DNA from: a virus
IMG/VR virus record: IMGVR_UViG_3300013285_000004
Span: 1 to 35,930 of that record
Strand: one strand, 5' to 3'
DNA length: 35,930 nucleotides
The notes under the pieces are model-generated. The model did no database searches, was not told the DNA's origin, and saw only the letters and a list, made by a program, of their open reading frames with translations. The translations under genes were made by a program, and so were the position numbers. Of this stretch, positions 16,141 to 35,615 are shown piece by piece (position 1 is the first letter of the stretch; each line of letters starts with the position of its first letter).

Positions 16141-16821
16141 TTACCATTCAATAATAACTGCACCACCAGCACCAGAAGCACCATTTGTAGTACCACTGCC
16201 ATCGTAAGAGCCACCGCCGCCACCTGAACCATAGGCTAATCCAGCGCTTGCTAAAGAAGTATTAAATCCACCGCTACCGCCACCTCCTAAACTACTTGAA
16301 CCGCCATTACCACCAGAACCACCTTGGGGTGAATTATAGTTAGCACCACAACCACCACTACCACCAGAAATATTTAAAGTTCCATTAGTTGCCGTTCCAC
16401 CAGCACCACCGATTGAACTTGCACTAGATCCACCACCAGTACCACCGCCACCTGTAATGGTTGTAATAGATTGTGTGCCTGAAGCAACAGTTGTAGAACC
16501 GCCAACACCACCAGTAGCACCATTAGCACCGCCTGCGCCAACTGTTACGGCTAATGTGTTTCCAGGGGTTACTCCAGTTAAATATTTAATTGCCGTTGCA
16601 CCACTACCACCACCACTACCAGGATTAGCAGTTCCGCTTGCATTTGCTCCACCAGCACCGCCACCAACTACTGTAATTTTTAGAGCAGTAACGCCAACTG
16701 GAATAGTGTATGTTCCATTAGCGACAAAAGTTTGGCCACGAATTCCATTTAAAGCCGCAGTAGTCTGTGCAGATGAATCAGCGGAAAACGTTAAAGTTGT
16801 TCCTGAAGTTGTAATTGACAT
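16141..16821 (-). CDS. Glycine-rich fibre-tip / adhesin-like protein
   Basis: A 226-residue protein. After a 25-residue start there is a small beta domain (GQTFVANGTYTIPVGVTALK), then about 150 residues dominated by glycine runs (GGGGTGGGSS, GGSGGNGGSSSLGGGGSGG), ending GGAVIIEW. Polyglycine-sandwich adhesins at the tips of phage fibres have this make-up. The ATG overlaps the stop of the large fibre by one base (TAATG), so it is probably made with the fibre and may be its tip. Gly-rich tips are typically variable host-range determinants; that is inferred here. Confidence 0.7.
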   Translation of the reverse strand: MSITTSGTTLTFSADSSAQTTAALNGIRGQTFVANGTYTIPVGVTALKITVVGGGAGGANASGTANPGSGGGSGATAIKYLTGVTPGNTLAVTVGAGGANGATGGVGGSTTVASGTQSITTITGGGGTGGGSSASSIGGAGGTATNGTLNISGGSGGCGANYNSPQGGSGGNGGSSSLGGGGSGGFNTSLASAGLAYGSGGGGGSYDGSGTTNGASGAGGAVIIEW

Positions 16822-21915: not shown

Positions 21916-21968
21916 GATTTTATTTCCTTAAATTAAGTTAAAAAGTAGGGGTTTCCCCCTACGATTAA

Positions 21969-33830: not shown

Positions 33831-34137
33831 AAGCTTGAAGTCCTAGTTCCTGGCCTTTGGCCAATGTTAGTTCATCATTACTATACCAAGGTAATGAAGG
33901 GCGCTTTAGTTCTTTTGGGGTCATATCTAAAATATCTTCCCATCTGCCCTGGTGCAACCACGTACTGGCATGGCATATGAAATCCATTTCAGTACCTTTT
34001 AATTTCCAGTACGCTATGTGTTGTTCAATGGCTTCTACGGCCTGGGATTGTTCATCTTTAGTCAGGCGATTAAATGCCCCCAGGGCGGCACGTTTAGCCA
34101 CCTTCCTAGGATATAGTTTCCAAAAAGTGTCAAACAT
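33763..34137 (-). CDS. Replication-type protein (FWKLYPRK domain)
   Basis: A 124-residue protein beginning FDTFWKLYPRKVAKRAALGA and continuing with HASTWLHQGRWEDI. This FW..YPRK...(A/H)xTWL-Q-RWE arrangement is known from the C-terminal part of phage replication initiators and helicase-loader-like proteins; here it stands alone. No ATPase motif is present. It is the only sign of a replication protein in the genome, so it may recruit host machinery. ATG 34137 overlaps the methyltransferase stop by eight bases. Confidence 0.6.
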   Translation of the reverse strand: MFDTFWKLYPRKVAKRAALGAFNRLTKDEQSQAVEAIEQHIAYWKLKGTEMDFICHASTWLHQGRWEDILDMTPKELKRPSLPWYSNDELTLAKGQELGLQAYAGESMAQYRQRISQAIGKASV

Positions 34138-35389
34138 TTTCAATTCTTTCGCCAATCCATTTCATAACTGGCACCGCCATTGAATTGCCAAGGGCTTTGT
34201 ATCTTGGGCCATCAGGGCAATTTTCTTTAATATTGGTGTAATTGTCGGGGAAACCTTGAAGGCGTTCACATTCTGTTGGAGTAAGTCTGCGTACCGCCAT
34301 TGTTGGGCTATATACATTGGGTACATGGTGATAATCAGCACCAGTATCTAAAGTTTTAGAAACATTGCCAGTAACAGAATTGTTATAAGCATCAAATCCT
34401 TGCGCAATAAATGTTTGAGCATGGTGGCTTTGCACAGATGGTCTTAATGCTTGCAGCGCTGGAGTAACTTTCAATGCTGTCGCACTAAAATTGTTTGCAG
34501 TAGCATCTTCTCTTATGCTATAGGCTTTTTGTACAAATGGCACATTCCCCCCCCCTGTTCCCCAACTGCTAGTAACAGTTTGACAAACATCACCCATTTC
34601 TTTAACTCTGCTATCGCTTGGGTGGTTTTCGTAAACCATCATAGTAAATCCATCTGCTCTACTGTAATCATTACAACTTGTTTGTAAGGTTGGTGCTACC
34701 TTTTCAGTCATTATTAGTTTCCCCCCCCCCCCTGCGGCATCGTCTGAATTGACTCCTTTGTAATCTCTTGCACACAATGTTCCAACGCTGTCCGCAATAG
34801 GGTAGGTAACTCTTTCCCTCGCTTTTCTGCCCTTCTTAGTATTCCCTGACAAGCTGTGGGGGTCAAATAATACTTCTGCGGCAGACTTCCAATTTCCAAG
34901 ACATCCGACAACAAACACTCGTCTGCGTCTTTGGGGTACTCCAAAGTATTGAGCATCAAGCACCCTGTATGCCCACCCATACCCGAGTTCGCCCAACGCC
35001 CCAAGGAAGGCACCAAAATCCCGTCCACCGCCTGAACTGAGGACACCTGGCACGTTTTCCCATATGCACCACTTGGGTCTAAACTTGTCAAGAATTCCAA
35101 CATAGGTAAGGGCAAGGTTTCCCCTTGGGTCATCAAGCCCTTTTCGCAATCCAGCAACGCTGAAACTTTGACATGGGGTTCCCCCAACGAGTAAATCCAA
35201 TCGGTTTGTTCCAAAATCCCACTCCTTGTATTTGGTCATATCCCCTAGATTTGGGGTATTTGGATAATAATGGGCAAGCACTTCACTAGGAAATTTTTCA
35301 ATTTCACTAAACCCCAAAGGTTTCCAACCTAAATCATGCCAAGCAACGGTAGCGGCTTCTATACCGCTACATACGCTTAAATAGTTCAT
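34130..35389 (-). CDS. DNA cytosine-5 methyltransferase with poly-G tracts
   Basis: A 419-residue enzyme with the full m5C motif set: I SVCSGIEAATVAW (5-17), IV GGTPCQSFSVAG (69-80, catalytic C73), VI ENVPG (111-115), VIII PQRRRRVFVVG (152-162), IX RRLTPTECERLQGFP (367-381) and X GNSMAVPVM (401-409). The target-recognition stretch (about 165-365) is long and made of five loose repeats. Two G tracts lie in it: G12 encoding Gly220-223 and G9 encoding Gly279-281. Each +1 or -1 change brings a stop within 2-13 codons, before motifs IX and X. This suggests phase-variable self-methylation. ATG 35389 follows an AT-rich leader without a clear binding site. Confidence 0.93.
   Translation of the reverse strand: MNYLSVCSGIEAATVAWHDLGWKPLGFSEIEKFPSEVLAHYYPNTPNLGDMTKYKEWDFGTNRLDLLVGGTPCQSFSVAGLRKGLDDPRGNLALTYVGILDKFRPKWCIWENVPGVLSSGGGRDFGAFLGALGELGYGWAYRVLDAQYFGVPQRRRRVFVVGCLGNWKSAAEVLFDPHSLSGNTKKGRKARERVTYPIADSVGTLCARDYKGVNSDDAAGGGGKLIMTEKVAPTLQTSCNDYSRADGFTMMVYENHPSDSRVKEMGDVCQTVTSSWGTGGGNVPFVQKAYSIREDATANNFSATALKVTPALQALRPSVQSHHAQTFIAQGFDAYNNSVTGNVSKTLDTGADYHHVPNVYSPTMAVRRLTPTECERLQGFPDNYTNIKENCPDGPRYKALGNSMAVPVMKWIGERIENV
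34547..34555 (-). repeat. G9 homopolymer in the methyltransferase gene
   Basis: Nine C on the + strand, nine G in the coding strand, encoding three glycines (Gly279-281). Losing one G gives TAA after about a dozen codons; gaining one gives TAG after about ten. A G run of nine is unusual for this AT-rich genome. Confidence 0.95.
34721..34732 (-). repeat. G12 homopolymer in the methyltransferase gene
   Basis: Twelve C on the + strand, twelve G in the coding strand, encoding Gly220-223. Losing one G gives GGA AAC TAA directly after the tract; gaining one gives GAA ACT AAT AAT GAC TGA. It is the longest G/C homopolymer I see in the window. Confidence 0.95.
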
Positions 35390-35393
35390 ATAA

Positions 35394-35615
35394 TTATCTT
35401 GAAAAAATTGCTTCAGCCGCCCAGCTTTCAAAACGCATAGCTGGTTGACCATTAACTTTATCGTGCATTGCCCATGTAAAGTTTTTGCCGTTTACGTCAG
35501 GATCAAGGTCAGGGTAAACTTTTTTAGCTTTGTCAAGATTTGCAAACTCATAACCTTCACGCATAGATAAAACAACTACTACTGGGCAGTTAGCTGGGAA
35601 TGGTAATTTAGTCAT
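35394..35615 (-). CDS. First gene of the leftward early block, unknown function
   Basis: A 73-residue protein that I do not recognise. It begins MTKLPFPANCPVVVVLSMRE and has LDKAKKVYPDLDPDVNGKNF and an aromatic helical end. ATG 35615 follows AAGGAAATAAAA and promoter P2. As the first gene after an early promoter it could be a host-takeover protein, which is a guess from position. The start at 35636 is less likely because it would cover the binding site. Confidence 0.7.
   Translation of the reverse strand: MTKLPFPANCPVVVVLSMREGYEFANLDKAKKVYPDLDPDVNGKNFTWAMHDKVNGQPAMRFESWAAEAIFSR

Follow-up and report, generated by a model that had tools for sequence, protein, structure and literature searches.

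The locus studied here raises the question of whether the reading frame of a phage DNA methyltransferase is set by the length of poly-G tracts inside the gene. The window, i.e. the whole stretch of DNA that was analyzed, comprises the 35,930 bases of a virus record (IMG/VR IMGVR_UViG_3300013285_000004).

A methyltransferase gene with two poly-G tracts

The following features of the window are relevant to the question.

34130..35452, minus strand: C5-cytosine DNA methyltransferase (MTase) gene, ORF of 440 amino acids (PF00145, PHROG 116)
35168..35176, minus strand: motif IV, catalytic Pro-Cys-Gln; invariant in 30 aligned relatives
35024..35032, minus strand: site 1 (LSSGGGRDFG), encoded by GGC GGT GGA; tract-free in the window, whereas many relatives have G9 or G10 here
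34721..34732, minus strand: site 2 tract, G12, four GGG codons in GAT GCC GCA (GGG)4 AAA (DAAGGGGK; motif AAGGGGKLI)
34547..34555, minus strand: site 3 tract, G9, three GGG codons in TGG GGA ACA (GGG)3 AAT GTG (WGTGGGNV(P))
34247..34291, minus strand: motif IX region (RRLTPTECERLQGFP), conserved in 30 aligned relatives; lost if either tract is out of frame
34166..34189, minus strand: motif X region (GNSMAVPV), invariant in 30 aligned relatives; lost if either tract is out of frame

Judged by its sequence, the gene is a C5-cytosine methyltransferase of the PF00145 family, and methylation is predicted. A profile search gave a match to PF00145 over the whole domain (1.4e-55, residues 22–438); the match to PHROG 116 was 2e-96, and the nearest solved relatives are M.HhaI and M.HaeIII. 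Motifs IV (PCQ), VI (ENV), VIII (QRRRR), IX and X are all present, and the motifs are invariant or nearly so among the 30 aligned relatives. The conserved start of the MTase is probably Met22 at position 35389. The target-recognition region was not resolved by structure prediction (mean pLDDT 49.5), which precluded mapping of the tracts onto a fold.

An earlier, sequence-only reading had reported a G12 and a G9 tract in frame in this gene. This was confirmed: both tracts are in frame on the coding strand, and each begins with the first base of a codon. The 35.9 kb contain no other run of at least six G or C, the next longest run being 5. Matches to seven G occur nine times in the window, compared with an expected 2.5 ± 1.7, and none of 100 shuffles gave as high a number. 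GGG is rarely used for glycine in the other main ORFs of the window (52 of 761 codons, 6.8%), and the naive chance that all seven tract codons would be GGG is about 7e-9. Glycine richness alone does not account for the tracts, because another ORF of this phage that is rich in glycine (16141–16821) contains 10 Gly-Gly-Gly windows with a longest G run of 2.

In silico, gain or loss of one G resulted in a stop 1–5 codons past the G12 tract and 9–10 codons past the G9 tract, and truncated the MTase ahead of motifs IX and X in either case. The earlier estimate of a stop within 2–13 codons was therefore about right. A change of three G in either tract kept the frame. In the MTase of the window, the reading frame is hence determined by the length of homopolymers within the coding region.

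Poly-G tracts in related methyltransferases

Homology and pattern searches of IMG/VR provided a set of 179 distinct related MTase sequences. A tract of at least seven G is present in 30 of them and absent in 149. The closest MTases, which are 75–86% identical, carry tracts at sites 2 and 3 and also at site 1; their in-frame tracts are 9 or 10 G long, versus 12 and 9 in the window. Among the relatives, tracts of G9, G10, G11 and G7 occur at site 2, and those at site 3 range from G7 to G10. The length that is in frame depends on the flank: ACA followed by G9 and ACG followed by G10 both read through.

The closest relative of the phage as a whole (G011/L058, terminase 91% identical) has an MTase with a similar N-terminus, a different target-recognition region and no tract. 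This indicates that the tracts travel with the target-recognition cassette. The sequence-only reading had named absence or interruption of the tracts in close relatives as a refutation of the switch. Within the MTase lineage the outcome favors the switch, since the tracts are kept, but the closest whole-phage relative lacks them. In the whole records of 34–40 kb that carry L090, L096, L100 and L009, no run of at least eight G was found beyond the MTase. Four relatives from isolated phages (H1, H7, H9 and H27) have no run of seven or more G in the fetched stretch. P1 Dmt, a phage orphan C5 MTase found as a match with 34% identity, belongs to the same fold family and has a variable target-recognition region; we know of no long poly-G tracts in phage orphan C5 MTases such as this one.

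A block of about 300 bp at site 1 (codons about −52 to +51) has hardly any synonymous differences among numerous phages that are divergent elsewhere, a pattern which suggests that the block was spread recently by recombination. Synonymous-site conservation at site 1 was dropped as proof of selection because the carriers hardly differ in any part of this block; the corresponding signal at sites 2 and 3 is weak. In one phage with a tract-free MTase, two G8 runs 20 bp apart are located just upstream of an apparent terminase large subunit gene (L415; G016:C1 about 21935–21962, minus strand).

The pattern search also gave five hits in bacterial genomes (L306–L310), none of which was used as evidence. 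Only L309, on the minus strand of a beta-proteobacterial MAG, matched the phage MTases by tblastn; it is frameshifted at its tract but has a second indel elsewhere. Its MTase has a deaminase-like stretch (CPRGDMPTGVGYELCKSICKQEGHAEINAL) inserted after motif IX and ahead of motif X. As for the other hits, L308 does not look like an MTase, and no match was obtained for L306, L307 and L310.

Reading frames are broken at the tracts

A tblastn frame analysis identified frameshifts in 6 of the 30 MTases with a tract of at least seven G and in none of the 149 tract-free MTases (Fisher p = 1.4e-5). Some of the tract-bearing MTases had been found by the tract pattern; homology alone sufficed to retrieve three of the six frameshifted contigs (as L171, L183 and L230). 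Two distant MTases whose frame changes lie away from tracts (L402 and L404) were left out of this count. The six breaks are located as follows.

L081: site 2, G11
L086: site 1, G10, and site 2, G7
L090: site 3, G9; an extra TAA is present
L096: site 1, G10
L089: a different glycine site (LGGGSET), G8; the stretch beyond is unaligned and the exact point is less certain
L142: site 3, G7; only about 30% identical

With the exception of L090, which has the TAA, the frameshifted MTases contain no further stop within the aligned segments.

Two contigs from different metagenomes, L044 and L086, share 2,142 bp over the MTase, which are 99.77% identical with two mismatches. Gaps in this alignment are confined to two tracts (+1 G for site 1, −2 G for site 2), meaning that tract length evolves far faster than the neighbouring DNA. 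Beyond the shared segment L044 (L044/L102) and L086 are only about 82% identical or less; the segment therefore represents a recent exchange between different phages. Three other near-identical contig pairs were compared and showed no tract difference. Tract length thus differs between close relatives, and both in-frame and out-of-frame states are found. Together, these comparisons indicate that poly-G slippage breaks and sets these reading frames in nature.

Tracts in other modification-type genes

The flanks of the 30 tract-bearing loci (169 kb) contain just two more tracts of at least seven G on the MTase strand, and both are situated in PAPS-reductase-like genes downstream of the MTase; a single C9 run adjoins L142. 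Among 80 relatives of one PAPS-reductase-like gene, a G9 is found in frame in three lineages. The PAPS-reductase-like gene of L329 has a G10 at which the frame is broken while the remainder is intact. Tracts in these genes occur at Gly-Gly-Gly (L329, position 3073; L095, 2302; L324, 1348; L374, 511; L083, 1440). Its resemblance to DndC-type enzymes suggests that the PAPS-reductase-like gene has a role in modification, and it is possibly a second switched modification gene.

In the loci selected by homology (1.615 Mb, which includes some contigs that were retrieved repeatedly), 30 of the 31 distinct tracts of at least eight G are in modification-type genes, which make up roughly 23% of this DNA by a rough estimate. 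Counted as modification-type were C5 MTases of two groups, putative MTases of the HPPC type, which were assigned by motif recognition, and PAPS-reductase-like genes. The one tract counted as outside (L325) reads like GGGNVPL and has no recognisable gene around it. G8 to G12 tracts were also seen at glycines in unrelated or distant MTase-like phage genes of the C5 and HPPC types (L324, position 450; L319, 1025; L368, 3717; L377, 5446; L379, 4347).

Alternative explanations

The tracts could be a mutational by-product: Gly-Gly-Gly codons would drift to G runs, slippage would extend them, and the frameshifted copies would be losses of a dispensable anti-restriction gene. Two of these copies carry two lesions each, L086 in its second tract and L090 in the TAA, and gradual loss of a dispensable gene is for this reason a serious rival. 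It also agrees with the lack of a tract in most of the relatives, with the weak synonymous-site signal and with the free swapping of target-recognition cassettes, by which one lineage can spread a tract. On the other hand, simple gene loss predicts frameshifts in the tract-free MTases too, and there were none. GGG is moreover the rarest glycine codon in the phage, whose other glycine-rich proteins are devoid of G runs, and the tracts, which are found repeatedly at different glycine sites and across several modification-type families, are nearly absent elsewhere. With this evidence on both sides we regard the by-product explanation as unlikely.

Homopolymers are error-prone, and the tract lengths were taken from assembled contigs; miscounts in the metagenome contigs might therefore imitate the frameshifts. 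A few contigs (L085, L044 and L107), too few to carry weight, also end at a tract, which suggests branching of the assembly and would be no more than a hint of reversible switching within a population. However, 24 of the 30 tract-bearing MTases assemble in frame, and frameshifts occur at tracts as short as G7 and G8. The difference between L086 and L044 includes a change of −2, L081 and L085 agree on G11 although they come from two metagenomes, and 15 A/T runs of 7–8 in the same MTase genes are without any frameshift. Sequencing or assembly error is thus a very improbable source of the pattern.

Programmed recoding, in which the poly-G would be slippery for RNA polymerase or ribosome and give two products per gene, has in its favor a 166-codon open frame that overlaps the MTase (34714–35214, minus strand), ends just beyond the G12 and is also open at the equivalent place in L081 and L086, but it is the least credible explanation, since the length encoded in the DNA itself varies between nearly identical copies, which recoding does not need, and the open frame, which lies over codons under strong constraint, may be due to chance.

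Discussion

The comparative data make it likely that hypermutable poly-G tracts set the reading frame of the phage C5-cytosine methyltransferase in the window, i.e. that they act as a frame switch. Because relatives carry runs that are one or two letters off and the gene is broken exactly there, it probably flips on and off at random. The sequence-only reading had proposed phase variation of this kind, together with bursts that would mix methylated and unmethylated particles and so hedge against host restriction systems of opposite preference. The phase variation is well supported: the close MTase relatives keep the tracts, the frameshifted assemblies break at a tract, and the 99.8% identical pair differs in tract length as its only indel. 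The interpretation as a whole is supported in part.

In such a switch, slipped-strand mispairing during replication would add or remove G in the glycine stretches of the target-recognition region. A change by three would be tolerated and leave the gene ON, while any other change would cut the protein short of motifs IX and X and turn the gene OFF. Selection would keep the tract as a reversible switch, so that the progeny would differ in DNA methylation; methylated and unmethylated virions might then serve as a hedge against host restriction. The window genes that were examined included no recognisable DNA polymerase. The phage is hence probably replicated by enzymes of the host, on whose mismatch repair slippage would then depend. 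The presence of two or three tracts makes it easier to switch the gene off than back on. The fact that two tracts are out of frame at once in L086 favors either a switch that operates at a high rate and is often under selection, or a gradual loss of the gene.

Intragenic poly-G tracts have a precedent in Campylobacter phages, where hypermutable polyG tracts are present in receptor-binding protein genes and phase variation was shown (Sorensen et al. 2021, Cell Rep 35:109214, as cited in PMC11868660 and PMC10877375). According to these citing accounts, slippage there alters expression and diversifies the progeny, as it would do here. Switching of the receptor-binding protein was demonstrated experimentally in that system, whereas the evidence here is comparative and the switched gene encodes a DNA-modification enzyme, a C5 MTase. 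Phase-variable methyltransferases of bacteria have long been known (e.g. PMC3711429). The bacterial phasevarions, for example those with type III mod genes, similarly have a DNA methyltransferase that is switched by simple repeats in the coding region. These are chromosomal and regulatory, while here the C5 MTase is encoded by a phage, its repeats are mononucleotide tracts that occupy up to three sites, and no regulon is implied. A literature search for phage DNA-modification genes switched by poly-G returned no report, which is weak evidence of novelty because most subscription papers were outside its coverage.

The chances seem evenly balanced that the switch extends further, to a broad group of environmental phages in which poly-G-switched modification genes, namely C5 MTases with up to three tracts, PAPS-reductase-like genes and putative MTases of the HPPC type, would generate many virion modification patterns and so form a randomly switching counter-restriction system. 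If this is true, phages apply to their own DNA modification the kind of hypermutable contingency locus that is used by pathogenic bacteria. Their susceptibility to host restriction could then shift at the rate of slippage instead of by rare escape, and the switch could account for some of the phage methyltransferases that are found broken at one spot.
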